Shown: piece by piece, positions 1,830 through 16,297 of the stretch
Numbering within the stretch: the stretch's first letter is position 1
How the letters are laid out: the number at the start of each line of letters is the position of its first letter
NCBI RefSeq assembly: GCF_014207505.1
Contig: NZ_JACHGL010000003.1
Coordinates: forward strand, 62,001 to 126,000
Reading direction: 5' to 3'
DNA length: 64,000 nucleotides
Source: Leuconostoc carnosum
GTDB lineage: Bacteria; Bacillota; Bacilli; Lactobacillales; Lactobacillaceae
The notes under the pieces: model-generated
The model's input: only the letters and a program-made list of their open reading frames with translations
Databases searched by the model: none
What the model was told of the DNA's origin: nothing
Translations under genes and position numbers: made by a program

Positions 1830-2381
1830 TTATTCGATTGCCATTCGTGACATCAATGTCTGGTAAACAATAGCAACCACATACACGCCAATCACTCGAT
1901 CTAAGTAATCCGTACCCACTTGTACCAAGAAAACTGACAGTGCTTGGTTCAAACCAAAACCATGTAAGACCTGAACAATCATACTTGATCCAGATGATGT
2001 GATACCATGAAACAAAATTACTGTGATAATGGTACTTACAATCGTAGCTGGTATAGAGATAATCAGCGCGACCCACCAAATATTTTTAAAATTCGTTGGT
2101 CGCATTTTTTTATAAACAAATCCAGATACTAATGCTGTCGCTATTTGACTAGGCATATAGTAAATGGAAAAAAGGTCCCCCGTCGTCCCATTAATTAATG
2201 CCGTTAGAATACCAGTAAATAGGCCACCAATGGGTCCGAAGAAGGCACTTCCAAGCAAGGTACCAATTGTATCCAAGTAAATTGGCAAATGTGCATATAA
2301 GGCAAGATGCCCACCAACAATGTTAATAACAATAAATAATGCAATTAACGCAATTTTTTGTGCTGAGAAATGTTTTGTCAT
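1830..2381 (-). CDS. ECF transporter S component, probably for a queuosine precursor or nucleoside
   Basis: A hydrophobic 183-residue protein with five or six predicted membrane segments. The segment LDTIGTLLGSAFFGPIGG followed by a second glycine-rich stretch is typical of substrate-binding (S) subunits of energy-coupling-factor vitamin transporters, which work with a shared EcfA/A'/T module encoded elsewhere. Its start overlaps the nucleoside hydrolase stop by 4 nt (ATGA), so the two are translationally coupled. Predicted preQ1-regulated S components (QueT and QrtT types) are known in Firmicutes. A preQ1-I-like leader in front of this operon points to queuosine or a related deazapurine as substrate. 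Family is fairly sure; substrate is inference. Confidence 0.75.
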   Translation of the reverse strand: MTKHFSAQKIALIALFIVINIVGGHLALYAHLPIYLDTIGTLLGSAFFGPIGGLFTGILTALINGTTGDLFSIYYMPSQIATALVSGFVYKKMRPTNFKNIWWVALIISIPATIVSTIITVILFHGITSSGSSMIVQVLHGFGLNQALSVFLVQVGTDYLDRVIGVYVVAIVYQTLMSRMAIE

Positions 2382-3373
2382 GATAATCGCTCCAAGTTTG
2401 TCGCAATATTATCTAACTCATTTTCAATGTCAGCAACATTGCTAGCCAATAGACCACTAATAATATGTGCCATTGCAGATTTAGCATCCACAGCCTGCAA
2501 AATCGTTGCATTAGGTTGCTTTTTCCAAAAATCTGCACGATCTACAATGCTTTGACCAAGAGCAATTCCGTCCGTCACTACAGTCACATATTTATTAACA
2601 GAACGTACAAGTTCAGGATGCAATGCGTAGATAATCACTAACGGATCATTGATGACTGCGCCTAAAACATGTTCCTGTTGCCAATGAAAATCAAAATAAA
2701 ATGGCATAATTTGGGCAACAAATTTAGCCTTTTCTGCATCCAAATATTGCATCATCTGCAACATATTTGGCGTGAATTCGAGTTTGCGTGTAACATCTAG
2801 TGGGACTAGTTCAATGTTCAATGGACTATTTTGAAACACGTAATCAGCTGCGTCAGGATCAACCCAAAAATTATACTCTGCCACAGGGGATGTATTGCCA
2901 TTAGTCTGATCAGCACCACCCATCACAATTAAACGTGATACCTGTTGCCAGATATCTGGTTGCTGCTGAAGTGCTATGGCCACATTAGTCAGTGGTCCAA
3001 GTGCTAAAAACCAAACATCTTCATTTTCAGACAATAGCTTCGCATAACCTGCTTGTGCATCGCGTTGGCTCGGTTTCACGTCAGTCACTCGTTCAAGTTG
3101 ACTTTGGCCCAAACCATCTTCACCATGTGTGTCTTGTGCACTCACATATTCATGCTTTAATGGTACTTCTGCACCCGCAAAAACCGGGATATCCAATCGA
3201 TTGGCTTCTCGTAATACTTTTAATGCATTTTGAACACCAATTATTGTGGGTACATTCCCTTCAACAATACTAATGCCAATCACATCAAGTTTTGGTGACC
3301 GTAAAGCCACAAGTAATGCCAGACTATCATCAATGCCTGGGTCAGCATCGATGATCACTTTTTGTTTTCGCAT
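2378..3373 (-). CDS. Nucleoside hydrolase (IunH family), possible queuosine hydrolase
   Basis: A 331-residue protein that opens with KVIIDADPGIDDSLAL. The DPGIDD motif holds the catalytic Ca2+ in inosine-uridine nucleoside hydrolases; an internal LGPLTNVA and MGG region and a C-terminal VAEYNFWVDPDAA motif are also typical. The family cleaves the N-glycosidic bond of ribonucleosides. In Clostridioides difficile a family member (QueK) releases queuine from queuosine. Here the gene leads an operon with an ECF S component behind a preQ1-I-like element, so salvage of queuosine is a reasonable reading, though purine or pyrimidine nucleosides cannot be excluded. A strong AGGAGAG lies 6 nt before the ATG. 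Confidence 0.88.
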   Translation of the reverse strand: MRKQKVIIDADPGIDDSLALLVALRSPKLDVIGISIVEGNVPTIIGVQNALKVLREANRLDIPVFAGAEVPLKHEYVSAQDTHGEDGLGQSQLERVTDVKPSQRDAQAGYAKLLSENEDVWFLALGPLTNVAIALQQQPDIWQQVSRLIVMGGADQTNGNTSPVAEYNFWVDPDAADYVFQNSPLNIELVPLDVTRKLEFTPNMLQMMQYLDAEKAKFVAQIMPFYFDFHWQQEHVLGAVINDPLVIIYALHPELVRSVNKYVTVVTDGIALGQSIVDRADFWKKQPNATILQAVDAKSAMAHIISGLLASNVADIENELDNIATNLERLS

Positions 3374-3397
3374 TATCTCTCCTACCTTTCAAGGTTA

Positions 3398-3432
3398 CTT
3401 GGTTTTTTATCCTGGGCAGTTTACGAACCAGT
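3398..3432 (-). ncRNA. Candidate preQ1-I riboswitch aptamer
   Basis: The minus-strand leader shows a 4-bp stem CUGG/CCAG enclosing a loop that starts UUCG and ends just before CCC. It is followed by the A-rich tail GAUAAAAAACCAAG. This reproduces the class I preQ1 layout: P1 stem, GGUUC, an 11-nt loop, an unpaired C before the closing strand, then an A6 tail near the ribosome-binding site. The tail is 17 nt upstream of AGGAGAG, so control of translation is plausible. I could not find a clean P2 pseudoknot helix by eye, which is the main weakness. Context (nucleoside hydrolase and ECF S component) fits queuosine metabolism. Confidence 0.55.
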
Positions 3433-3470
3433 CCAATAAATGAGTTATTGATTTTGATAAATGCGTATTA

Positions 3471-3479
3471 AGTATAACA
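3471..3479 (-). promoter_or_regulatory. Extended -10 promoter of the nucleoside hydrolase operon
   Basis: TATACT (3476-3471 on the minus strand) is preceded by TGT, giving an extended -10 box without a good -35. Transcription would start near 3464, about 30 nt before the candidate aptamer. Confidence 0.45.
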
Positions 3480-3532
3480 AATCTTTTGCGAGAATACTGC
3501 TTAAATAATTATTTTATACGATATATTTGAAG

Positions 3533-3928
3533 TTATTTTTTGCGATTCCTTTCGGTTAATACTTGATTAATACGGCGCGCATTATCTCGTCCCTGTTTTC
3601 TAAAATAGATAAAAATAATGACATAGGTAATCAGAAATGTTGGTAGATTAACAATTGCAATAATAACATTTCCAAAAGTCAGCCAAATAAAAATACAATA
3701 AGTTAGCATTTCTAAAAGAAAATGACTCACAAGTTGCGTAATAAACGTGATTTTATCATACTCAAATATGAGAGATAATAGGCCCATAATGGCACTCATC
3801 ATCATCAACAAGATAAACTGCGTCATTGATGGTGTATCGTGGTTTAACGTAAACGATAGTAGTGAAATAAATGATCCAACACCAATACCTACTAGTAGAT
3901 ATACCAAAACTGCTTTAAAATGTTTCAT
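3533..3928 (-). CDS. DUF3021 membrane protein, partner of the LytTR regulator
   Basis: A 131-residue protein with four predicted membrane helices and a basic C-terminus (RKQGRDNARRINQ). DUF3021 proteins are commonly encoded directly after a small LytTR-domain regulator, as here: this start overlaps the LytTR stop by 14 nt. In streptococcal LytTR regulatory systems (such as HdrRM and BrsRM) the membrane protein restrains the DNA-binding partner. By analogy this protein may hold back the LytTR protein and respond to the state of the membrane. That role is inferred. The gene ends the four-gene operon; no obvious terminator hairpin was found after it. Confidence 0.75.
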   Translation of the reverse strand: MKHFKAVLVYLLVGIGVGSFISLLSFTLNHDTPSMTQFILLMMMSAIMGLLSLIFEYDKITFITQLVSHFLLEMLTYCIFIWLTFGNVIIAIVNLPTFLITYVIIFIYFRKQGRDNARRINQVLTERNRKK

Positions 3929-4382
3929 CTTCTGCTCTCCCTTCTAATCTGTTTAAAATACCTTTGATGAACCGTCTAGACACTGTAACCCGTGTGTCAT
4001 TTGTCAAAAAGGCATAGTAATTTCCAGAGAATGCCGCTTCCATCTTTGACAAATATGACAAATTCATGGCTGCCGATTTAGAAATTTGAACAAAATTAAA
4101 CTTTTGATTTTCTGCTAAAAACTTTTTTAGTGTCTTTCTGGTCGTTAACTTCTGGTTATTTTTGAGAGTAAATGTCAAATCATTGCCAAAACTCTCCATT
4201 AGCATGATATTTCCCTTGTCGACCACCCTGATATTATCGGCTGTTTTGATCGCAAGTTGCCGAGAAAATGTATTTTTAGCTTTGAGGTACTGAGCAATAT
4301 CTGCCAGTTCTTCAATATTGCGACCTGCGATGACAACTTTAACTTCTTCTAGTTCATCATCAATATTGATGTTTATTTCCAT
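3915..4382 (-). CDS. LytTR-domain DNA-binding regulator
   Basis: A 155-residue protein whose C-terminal half (about residues 65-150) is a LytTR domain: VDKGNIMLMESFGNDL, a KTLKKFL stretch and FVQISKSAAMNLSYLSKME, typical of the beta-rich LytTR fold. The N-terminal part is short and has no receiver domain, so the protein is not a classical response regulator. I chose the ATG at 4382 (MEINI); a start five codons upstream is also open. It overlaps the ABC permease end and the DUF3021 start. It probably controls its own operon, as LytTR/DUF3021 pairs usually do. Confidence 0.8.
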   Translation of the reverse strand: MEININIDDELEEVKVVIAGRNIEELADIAQYLKAKNTFSRQLAIKTADNIRVVDKGNIMLMESFGNDLTFTLKNNQKLTTRKTLKKFLAENQKFNFVQISKSAAMNLSYLSKMEAAFSGNYYAFLTNDTRVTVSRRFIKGILNRLEGRAEDETF

Positions 4383-5088
4383 TTTTATTACCCACAACCA
4401 CTTTCATAATCACACCAAGAATACCTAATAAAATAAGTAGATATAGACCTATTTTACCAGATATATAATCCGTGTCATTGAGATGCTTTGTATAATCAGT
4501 TATAAATAGTTTAATTGGCAAGTAATTACCTAATTTACCCACATTCATATTGCCCATAATACCCGAAATAATCATGATGGCAAAATAGCTAATCATAGAA
4601 ATCCCATAAACCTGTGAAAACTTCTTCAAAATCATTGTTAATAAAAATATAATCATGAAATAGACTGCCGTACTTAAAATCTGAAAAATAGCCATCTGCA
4701 CCATAATTGATGGGCTAGGTAATGGCAAATTAAAATGAGATAGAAAAATCCATGAGTAAATGATGCTTGATAACAAAACAAATCCTGTTAGGGCAATAAA
4801 TTTATGTAGCGCTTGCGATACACGTGAATAACCAAAAAGTTCAGCGCGTAACGTAAAGCCATGTTCCACTTCTTGCGAAAATAGTGAACTGAACCCGACA
4901 AATACCATTGACAGCGGTATTGTAGAAAAAAAGCTGAGATAAAGCTGATTTAATGCTTGTGGTACATTGTCATAGCTACTCCCAAAAACTAACGCCATCA
5001 TTGGTGCAAATGCAAATCCAAAGAATAACGTTATCATATTGCCTAATAAATTTTGAAATTCAAAGACTAATTTTCTTTTTTGAATCAT
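4360..5088 (-). CDS. ABC transporter permease (ABC-2-like)
   Basis: A 242-residue protein with about six predicted membrane helices and no catalytic motifs, in the size range of ABC-2-type permeases that work with the ATPase just upstream. Its ATG overlaps the ATPase stop by 4 nt and its end overlaps the LytTR gene, so the four genes form one tight operon. ABC-2 permeases with LytTR partners often export lipids, peptides or antimicrobial compounds, but the sequence does not give the substrate. The residues after the first helices (SQEVEHGFTLRAELFGYSR) look like the cytosolic coupling region. Function beyond transport is unknown. Confidence 0.75.
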   Translation of the reverse strand: MIQKRKLVFEFQNLLGNMITLFFGFAFAPMMALVFGSSYDNVPQALNQLYLSFFSTIPLSMVFVGFSSLFSQEVEHGFTLRAELFGYSRVSQALHKFIALTGFVLLSSIIYSWIFLSHFNLPLPSPSIMVQMAIFQILSTAVYFMIIFLLTMILKKFSQVYGISMISYFAIMIISGIMGNMNVGKLGNYLPIKLFITDYTKHLNDTDYISGKIGLYLLILLGILGVIMKVVVGNKNGNKHQY

Positions 5089-5885
5089 GCGCGTTGTCCC
5101 TTCATAACTTCCGTATAAACTAATTCAATATCACCTTGTGTCCGCCTAAAATCATCCCCATCGTCAATAAGTTGTCTTGCGACTGAATACTCTTCTTCAG
5201 GCTGCTGTACCTTAATATTTTTGTCGACGTTGTTGCCAACAATAAATGCTGAATAGCCGACATATTGCTTAAATAGATTTTTAGGTGCATCAAAGGCAAT
5301 TACTTGTCCATTATCGATAATTAAGAGCTTATCAGCTAGCTGTTCGATTTCTTTGGCATAGTGTGTCACCATGATAACGGTTGTTTGATGTTCTTTAAAA
5401 TATACTTTCAATTGCTTGATGAGTGCCTGTCGGCTTTCAAAATCAAGACCAGTTGTCATTTCATCCAAAAACAGTAATTCTGGTTCTTGATAAAGTACCA
5501 TGATTAGGCTCATACGTTGCTTTTGCCCGCCAGATATATTTTTAAAATGGTGAGATAATTGTGACCTGAAATTAAAAAAATCAATTAATTCAACTAACTT
5601 CTTATCTTTCTTGATGCTTGTGTTCAATAATCCTTCCATAATTTTCTGATTTGTCATAGTATCAATATAATATTGCTCCTGCATCAATATGCCGACATCA
5701 TCAGTATTAAGTGTGACTTGCCCCTTAAAAGGAACTAATCCTAAACAACTATTCACTAACGTCGATTTCCCTGATCCTGATTGTCCCATCACACCAATAA
5801 TTTCACCCTTATTAATGGTTAAATTCGGCACTGTCAAAGCAAGCTTTTTCCCGTATGATACATTTAATCCTTTAATTTCTAACAT
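5085..5885 (-). CDS. ABC transporter ATP-binding protein
   Basis: A 266-residue ATPase with Walker A GQSGSGKST, signature ISGGQKQR, Walker B LLFLDEMTTGLD and the H-loop VTHYAKE. It energises the permease encoded next. A longer reading frame starts at 5903, but its first ATG lies inside the ribosome-binding site (AGAAGGGAGA); the ATG at 5885 has that site at the right distance and gives the usual MLEIKGLNVSYG opening. First gene of the ABC/ABC/LytTR/DUF3021 operon. The roughly 50 C-terminal residues beyond the ATPase core have no recognised domain. Confidence 0.88.
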   Translation of the reverse strand: MLEIKGLNVSYGKKLALTVPNLTINKGEIIGVMGQSGSGKSTLVNSCLGLVPFKGQVTLNTDDVGILMQEQYYIDTMTNQKIMEGLLNTSIKKDKKLVELIDFFNFRSQLSHHFKNISGGQKQRMSLIMVLYQEPELLFLDEMTTGLDFESRQALIKQLKVYFKEHQTTVIMVTHYAKEIEQLADKLLIIDNGQVIAFDAPKNLFKQYVGYSAFIVGNNVDKNIKVQQPEEEYSVARQLIDDGDDFRRTQGDIELVYTEVMKGQRA

Positions 5886-5933
5886 TGTAATCTCCCTTCT
5901 CATATTGGCTTTATTTTAGCAATTTAGGGGATC

Positions 5934-15904: not shown

Positions 15905-15917
15905 ATTTTTAGTTTAG

Positions 15918-15991
15918 TGCCGACGAGAGGAATCGAACCTCCGACCCCAGGTTTACGATACCCGTGCTCTACCAACTGAGCTACATCGGCA
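15918..15991 (-). tRNA. tRNA-Thr (anticodon CGT)
   Basis: A 74-nt cloverleaf on the minus strand: acceptor TGCCGAT/GTCGGCA, D-arm GCTCAGTTGGTAGAGC, anticodon loop ATCGTAA and T-arm GGTTCGATTCC. The anticodon CGT reads ACG codons (Thr). CCA is not encoded. It is transcribed about 30 nt behind a tRNA-Asn gene. Confidence 0.95.
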
Positions 15992-16021
15992 AGATGATAA
16001 CTATAATGAGTTATCTGATAA

Positions 16022-16094
16022 CTCCGACTGTCGGGCTCGAACCGACGACAACCTGATTAACAGTCAGGTGCTCTACCAACTGAGCTAAGTCGGA
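16022..16094 (-). tRNA. tRNA-Asn (anticodon GTT), downstream copy
   Basis: A 73-nt cloverleaf on the minus strand with acceptor TCCGACT/AGTCGGA, anticodon stem CCTGA/TCAGG and loop CTGTTAA. CCA is not encoded. It has its own promoter and appears to be co-transcribed with tRNA-Thr. Identical to the copy at 16201-16273. Confidence 0.96.
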
Positions 16095-16118
16095 ATAATT
16101 GCTTAACACAACTATTTA

Positions 16119-16147
16119 ATTATGCCAGTTTCATTCTTATTTGTCAA
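16119..16147 (-). promoter_or_regulatory. Promoter of the tRNA-Asn/tRNA-Thr unit
   Basis: Minus strand TTGACA (16147-16142), 17 nt, then CATAAT (16124-16119) with TG just before the -10 box. It lies 25 bases upstream of the tRNA. Confidence 0.8.
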
Positions 16148-16161
16148 CACTTTTCAAGTCA

Positions 16162-16191
16162 CAAAAAAAGCAAATCTAATAAGATTTGCTT
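16162..16191 (-). terminator. Terminator between the two tRNA-Asn genes
   Basis: A 10-bp stem (AAGCAAATCT/AGATTTGCTT) with a 4-nt loop, followed by a run of T on the minus strand. It ends the transcript of the upstream tRNA-Asn copy. Confidence 0.87.
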
Positions 16192-16200
16192 CTCATAAAA

Positions 16201-16273
16201 CTCCGACTGTCGGGCTCGAACCGACGACAACCTGATTAACAGTCAGGTGCTCTACCAACTGAGCTAAGTCGGA
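16201..16273 (-). tRNA. tRNA-Asn (anticodon GTT), upstream copy
   Basis: Same 73-nt sequence as the 16022-16094 gene, with anticodon GTT and no encoded CCA. It has a consensus promoter that lies just beyond the lysS stop codon and is followed by its own terminator, so it forms a one-gene unit. Confidence 0.96.
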
Positions 16274-16297
16274 ATAATTGCTTAACACAACTTAATT

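Follow-up and report, generated by a model that had tools for sequence, protein, structure and literature searches.

The queK-qrtT-queL operon of C. difficile was reportedly first described by Yuan et al. in 2019. According to PMC11477304, this operon is preceded by a preQ1-I riboswitch; QrtT takes up preQ1, queuosine (Q) and queuine, QueK converts Q to queuine, and QueL converts queuine to preQ1. The same enzymes are described in PMC11130926, which distinguishes two C. difficile QrtT proteins: one takes up preQ1 only, whereas its counterpart accepts queuine and Q as well as preQ1. Both queK and queL are also named among preQ1-riboswitch genes in PMC12519234.

We analyzed a 64,000-nt stretch of Leuconostoc carnosum DNA (the window), which lies in a 1.82-Mb genome (G000), and compared one of its operons with these systems (Table 1). 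As in the published C. difficile operon, a preQ1-I aptamer is followed by a nucleoside hydrolase gene and then by the gene of an ECF S component, a likeness judged by layout and by a Terrisporobacter locus (L099). It differs from that operon in having no queL relative and in a short leader with a start-codon clamp. The operon is a queL-less form of the published salvage operon, and the absence of queL is new. The sequence-only reading had proposed a riboswitch-led queuosine-type salvage unit, which our evidence supports in kind, and we consider it likely that this is a preQ1-repressed queuosine-family salvage operon of Leuconostoc, of the type queK-qrtT.

Table 1. Operon and leader features in the window (basis left empty where none is given).
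Feature	Position	Strand	Basis
Extended −10 box TATACT, with TG one base before	3471..3476	-	read from sequence
5′ clamp strand CGCAUUUAUC, near the predicted start of transcription; complementary to start-codon region	3456..3465	-	permutation test, folds
P0 hairpin CAAUAA-CUCAU-UUAUUG, separated from the 5′ side of P1 by 2 nt	3434..3450	-	permutation test, 69 leaders
preQ1-I riboswitch aptamer	3393..3437	-	RF00522 match; P1 = 3428-3431 (CUGG) with 3412-3415 (CCAG)
att core CTGCCCAGGATAAAAAA, 17 bp, repeated at both prophage ends in G010 and G006; intact in window	3403..3419	-	
Hairpin ACCU-UGAA-AGGU beside Shine-Dalgarno sequence	3384..3395	-	sequence and fold
Shine-Dalgarno sequence AGGAG	3379..3383	-	sequence
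Start-codon strand of 5′ clamp, GAUAAUGCG	3369..3377	-	permutation test, folds
Nucleoside hydrolase, QueK clade, 331 aa, PF01156	2378..3373	-	Pfam, tree, residue 242
ECF transporter S component, QrtT-like, 183 aa, PF12822	1830..2381	-	Pfam, adjacency

A preQ1-I aptamer near the curated threshold

A cmscan search of positions 3200-3700 (501 bases) matched the RF00522 model end to end (positions 1-45 of 45; 38.5 bits, E 2.3e-6), 0.5 bits below the curated gathering score of 39, and bears out the proposed preQ1-I identity. In a scan of the whole window three tRNAs were the sole Rfam matches at the gathering threshold, the aptamer not being among them. The leader reads, on the minus strand, P1 strand CUGG, loop UUCGUAAACUGC, CCAG and GAUAAAAAACCAAG, and its P1 hairpin, CCC and A-rich tail stand in register with the model. 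The elements pointed out earlier, namely the CUGG/CCAG stem, a loop starting with UUCG, CCC (3414-3416), a run of six A (3403-3408) and a hydrolase with the motif DPGIDD starting at 3373, can all be read from the sequence. The span 2378..3479 given for the operon holds at the leader, where the −10 box reaches 3476, and falls short at the other end, where the S component runs on to 1830. At the RF00522 gathering score no match came from any of 20 loci (18 orthologue loci, L002-L019, and two others), the other Leuconostoc copies of this leader included; in the genome search these copies score from 38.5 down to 28.8 bits.

We collected relatives by an alignment-based scan of genome contigs and examined the best 80 of 127, which span Lactobacillaceae, Enterococcus, Streptococcus, Lachnospiraceae and other Bacillota. 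In all 80 of these best-scoring loci the hydrolase is followed, within about 400 bases, by a relative of the S component. Among them, 40 loci were tested with RF00522 and 35 (16/20 and 19/20) exceed the gathering score; aptamers before related hydrolase-S component pairs in other families score 39-54 bits. A 35-nt core consensus, typed by hand from Rfam-matched leaders, fits 68 of the best 80 loci with 0-5 mismatches, against a minimum of 11 mismatches over 511 control windows taken from the minus strands of 40 loci. By eye, seven more loci (L079, L085, L124, L131, L143, L144, L155) have an aptamer with an indel, L150 has P1 and the loop with a doubtful tail, L077 and L081 are cut by prophages, and L097 and L133 have no visible aptamer. 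Because 35 of the 40 related leaders exceed 39 bits, the window aptamer reads as a near-threshold relative of clear members; a chance leader is ruled out by these loci together with the fit of the core relative to controls. The window leader is a real preQ1-I family riboswitch, and preQ1 is the predicted ligand of the RNA at 3393-3437.

P1 shows a compensatory change, with CUAG/CUAG in two loci (L013, L018) and CUGG/CCAG in most leaders shown. The columns of the candidate P2 helix are nearly invariant across leaders, so covariation is uninformative there; at the P2 strand, CCAAG replaces the CUAAG of RF00522 in Leuconostoc and some lactobacilli. G000 contains a second RF00522 match (G000:C5:94529-94574; 3530-3575 of L074), and behind it stands the gene of QueT (PF06177). 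This leader likewise places a preQ1-I aptamer ahead of an ECF S component, and differs in being compact, with its Shine-Dalgarno sequence beside the A-rich tail.

The hydrolase has an orthologue in 17 of 19 Leuconostoc genomes. The other two (G013, G017) have neither a queK orthologue nor any RF00522 match, though tgt and queA are present, and in an 890-contig assembly (G018) the hydrolase is frameshifted and the leader one A shorter. Eleven loci, without exception from Clostridia or unplaced Bacillota, have an ORF of 228-234 aa behind the S component. Of three such ORFs tested, two gave a Radical_SAM match slightly short of the Pfam cut-off, and the RaSEA model matched each of the three, far below its own cut-off. 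A 229-aa ORF in L153 is unlike this third gene and resembles Mrr, and no third ORF adjoins the pair in several clostridial loci (e.g. L089, L096, L112). The Terrisporobacter locus combines an aptamer (5 core mismatches, under the gathering score), the hydrolase, the S component and a radical-SAM-like third gene.

The gene pair is also found on two plasmids, preceded in both by DNA matching the window leader: pLPCN-2 of Lacticaseibacillus paracasei (L190, NZ_CP050502.1; typed conjugative), where IS5 transposase genes flank it on both sides, and pCF3A-343-2 of Enterococcus faecalis (L196, NZ_CP142821.1; typed non-mobilizable). Upstream of the operon in the window, on the same strand (3533-5903), lies a gene for a DUF3021 protein, with neighboring ORFs that by eye resemble a DNA-binding regulator and an ABC transporter pair.

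Two covarying helices outside the RF00522 model

The leader has two covarying helices, P0 and a clamp that joins the 5′ end of the mRNA to the start codon, neither of which is in RF00522. The window leader shares with that model the full-length match, P1, CCC and the A-rich tail; to its 45 positions and single hairpin it adds these two elements. In 69 distinct leaders, P0 forms at least four consecutive pairs (G-U allowed) in 63. Over the 69, the mean pairing energy is −5.14 kcal/mol; permuting the 3′ arms raises it to −1.73 kcal/mol, and none of 5000 permutations reached so low a value. The arm sequences vary widely (CAAG/CTTG, CGGGG/CCCCG, CAAAAC/GTTTTG and others).

We placed the mRNA 5′ end from the TATACT box five bases upstream. 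Boxes like it occur at similar leader positions in many relatives, and a consensus scan that also requires a −35 box found no promoter at the leader. The 5′ end of the window mRNA, CGCAUUUAUC, is complementary to the start-codon region, GAUAAUGCG. We tested this pairing in other leaders using the 22 nt next to P0: of 84 rows tried, 73 were usable (six had fewer than four P0 pairs, three had no start and two no aptamer), and these included 47 short leaders, or 28 once near-copies were removed. The 28 short leaders gave a mean of −9.36 against −7.42 for permuted pairings, and the 10 among them without TGCAT gave −8.98 against −5.73, with 0 of 20000 permutations as good in either set; here as for P0, such counts are not probabilities, the leader sequences being kin. 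Other clamp pairs include GTTCATT/AATGAAC (L087) and GTATTCAT/ATGAATAC (L103). An earlier, looser test run without permutation was weak (49 leaders, mean −8.99 vs −7.89, median rank 0.375, 8/49 in the best tenth). The clamp found no support in long, terminator-type leaders, where 1473 of 20000 permutations did as well (29 leaders, 21 minus near-copies).

In the window, the clamp appears in both the minimum-energy and the centroid fold. The best fold of the leader contains the clamp, P0 and the hairpin beside the Shine-Dalgarno sequence and accounts for 0.3% of the ensemble; the whole leader folds no better than shuffles (z −0.13). The ligand-free minimum-energy fold also pairs part of the aptamer with downstream AACC..AGU, a pairing absent from the centroid.

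By eye, we found neither P0 nor the clamp in 24 other RF00522 matches or in the G000 queT leader, all of which look compact; the downstream gene of these leaders was identified in G000 only. The terms 'start codon', 'AUG', 'hydrolase' and 'qrtT' do not occur in the available portion of a 2024 review of preQ1 riboswitches (PMC11625349). Within the limited literature examined here, parts of papers included, P0 and the clamp are new.

Substrate, transport and the fate of the base

The S component matches PF12822 (38.8 bits, cut-off 30.7), and its ORF overlaps that of the hydrolase by four bases, in agreement with the coupling noted earlier. Its nearest NCBIfam model, ECF_S_CD3073, scores 87.7 bits with a cut-off of 180. 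We regard it as QrtT-like, and it may carry queuosine-type nucleosides or bases; G000 has two EcfT-like genes (PF02361).

The hydrolase matches the inosine-uridine-type family PF01156 at 290 bits and scores below 55% of the cut-offs for RihA (208.5/433), RihC (205.9/382) and ribosylpyrimidine nucleosidase (166.8/459). In a tree of 57 rows, a 97/97 branch separates 40 operon hydrolases, including L099 and L120 from operons of preQ1-I aptamer, hydrolase, S component and radical-SAM-like gene, from 17 paralogue rows, including two other hydrolases of G000; C. difficile QueK itself is absent from this tree. L020 and L027, the two rows closest to the operon clade, sit on long branches and are weakly supported; beside L020 (G037) lies a relative of the S component (34%), and no aptamer was seen in the L020 leader. 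Residues 11, 15, 16, 40, 160, 166, 168 and 243, which we take to be metal and ribose ligands, are conserved in 87 of 87 clade members. The enzyme shares with RihA, RihB and RihC the fold family and Asp/Asn/Glu residues, presumably of the active site, and differs at position 242, where Asn stands in all 87 clade members in place of the His found in 16 of 17 paralogue rows. In inosine-uridine hydrolases this His protonates the leaving base. Because 7-deazaguanine bases have no N7 to protonate, Asn242 would fit a 7-deazaguanine leaving group, and it suggests a substrate of that type. The hydrolase belongs to the QueK clade and is predicted to cleave a queuosine-type nucleoside.

These features bear directly on whether a hydrolase of the usual kind, acting on pyrimidine or purine nucleosides, and a transporter could stand behind a preQ1-like sequence by coincidence. 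Pfam does assign the protein to the general family PF01156, and its closest solved structures are of the RihA type, and yet the pair and the aptamer are kept together over several families. We dropped this reading, which we regard as very improbable, on the separate clade and the clade-wide Asn242, so the expectation that the protein would not group with ordinary inosine-uridine hydrolases has held up.

Both tgt and queA are present in G000 (queA in 40 of the 41 genomes searched, G000 included). For preQ0 synthesis, whose absence the sequence-only reading had named as a point to check, we searched queC and queF: queC matched over model positions 2-61 of 210 only (22.2 bits, cut-off 22, within a 414-aa frame), a kind of short match listed for nearly all genomes, and queF reached 25.4 bits, under its cut-off of 27.3, in an ORF that we take from its sequence to be FolE-like. 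On these two results we dropped the idea that G000 makes preQ1 itself. No queL was found in 16 Lactobacillales genomes, G000 included, in a search that recovered it in 4 of 4 clostridial controls (one being the query's own genome); a first search, run without a positive control, also gave none in 19 Leuconostoc genomes. The search for queG found none in 19 Leuconostoc genomes (7/14 controls positive), and that for queH none in the same 19 (4/41 overall; 2/14 controls positive). In all 19, G000 and 18 others, queA was found without queG or queH, leaving epoxyqueuosine reduction without a known enzyme here. The window also contains genes for tRNA-Thr and two tRNA-Asn(GTT) at 15917-16274; tRNA-Asn is a queuosine-bearing tRNA.

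TGT could be aligned for 30 of the 41 genomes (nine Leuconostoc rows, G019, G024 and 19 other Lactobacillales; the Leuconostoc group set is L001 and L176-L185). We number residues after Zymomonas TGT and take Cys158 and Val233 to be specificity residues and Cys-x-Cys to belong to the Zn site. The nine Leuconostoc rows, G019 and G024 have Ala at the Cys158 place and no Cys-x-Cys, whereas all 19 others keep both; Val233 is kept in 30 of 30. A tie between this pocket and the presence of queK fails, as G013 has the motif without queK (L185), and in G026 queK coexists with the ordinary pocket (L167).

Because queA is kept and the searches found no queL relative in G000, queuine released from queuosine would have no demonstrated onward route unless TGT takes this base or the hydrolase acts on a preQ1-level nucleoside instead. 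Under the second of these readings, TGT would receive preQ1 and QueA would then act, queuosine not being the main substrate. It draws on the retention of queA in all but one of the searched genomes and the absence of queL from 16/16 Lactobacillales, and the riboswitch class senses preQ1, which would be the product of that route; against it, free preQ1 nucleoside is not known to be abundant, and some members of the clade come from Clostridia that carry a QueL-like gene, where the published route (PMC11477304) runs from Q through queuine to preQ1. We think a preQ1-level substrate rather unlikely. The alternative is recycling over import, with QueK freeing queuine from the cell's own tRNA breakdown, the S component importing free base and TGT taking queuine. 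The altered TGT pocket of the Leuconostoc group would suit it, and ready-made queuine would bypass the step for which queG and queH are missing. The retained Val233, the other presumed specificity residue, and the two genomes in which pocket and queK part company speak against it, and we judge recycling rather unlikely as well.

For the preferred reading of a preQ1-repressed salvage operon, the following scheme proposes the substrate, the direction of regulation, the transport specificity and the coupling of clamp to ligand. When preQ1 is scarce, the leader would be open and both QueK and QrtT would be made. QrtT, with a shared ECF module, may import queuosine-type nucleosides or bases, and QueK would cleave the nucleoside, supplying TGT with a 7-deazaguanine base. 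With abundant preQ1, the aptamer pseudoknot would form and the ribosome-binding site and AUG would be occluded, the closed aptamer core bringing the mRNA 5′ end to the AUG. Alternatively, the clamp may lower translation irrespective of ligand. Because queL is absent from the 16 Lactobacillales, free queuine would have no demonstrated entry to tRNA if TGT is preQ1-specific.

Prophages joined within the aptamer

Phage DNA lies inside the aptamer in 3 of the 17 operon-bearing Leuconostoc genomes (L003 in G010, L009 in G002 and L012 in G006), and in these leaders nothing 5′ of the aptamer's 3′ half is left in place. The loci concerned also include L068-L073 and L075. Both prophage ends and the att core, which is the 3′ half of the aptamer, were established in two genomes, G010 and G006. 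In G010 the missing aptamer half was located some 43 kb off in the same orientation (28.1 bits), beside a tyrosine integrase gene; in G006 the sequence CTGCCCAGGATAAAAAA stands at both ends of about 41 kb, with an integrase related to that of G010. The two phages have different terminase and portal families. The G002 case comes from one prophage end, with phage endolysin and tail genes running to the contig end.

At the operon side, the phage ends of all three genomes carry TATAAT 59-60 nt before GCCCAGG. The idea that these ends re-create the clamp found no support, as 63, 253 and 115 of 500 shuffles were equally good. An IMG/VR contig in which attL occurs proved to be none other than the G006 prophage (100% over 1042 bases), and the short attR-side pattern matched two viral contigs (L188, L189) in what by eye looks like coding sequence with no tie to the operon. 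The int/attL DNA had no match in the phage collection, where the 1365 records of related integrases are all less than 60% identical. A riboswitch as attachment site is absent from the titles on prophage, riboswitch and attachment site, and the accessible part of a Leuconostoc phage review (PMC4009412) gives tRNA genes as targets in Oenococcus and does not mention riboswitch sites.

These junctions suggest that the prophage frees the operon from preQ1 control. Taken as a whole, the queK-type leader of Lactobacillales may be a distinct riboswitch architecture, with the mRNA 5′ end clamping the start codon round a P0-aptamer core, and the aptamer DNA may serve as an attachment site of temperate Leuconostoc phages, lysogeny replacing sensor and promoter by a TATAAT-bearing phage end and cutting the operon from preQ1 control; on this combined statement our confidence is evenly balanced.

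The range of the riboswitch-controlled queuosine salvage operon is widened from Clostridia to lactic acid bacteria, where, as searched, it comes without QueL, on which the usefulness of salvage in C. difficile depends. It becomes a sharp and testable question which base these bacteria truly take up. A specialist would be surprised by the additional RNA helices and by the phage attachment site: two covarying helices are added to one of the smallest riboswitches, and a riboswitch used as a phage attachment site offers a natural experiment in which one operon can be observed either with its sensor or without it. If the attachment-site reading is true, the operon would escape preQ1 control throughout lysogeny.
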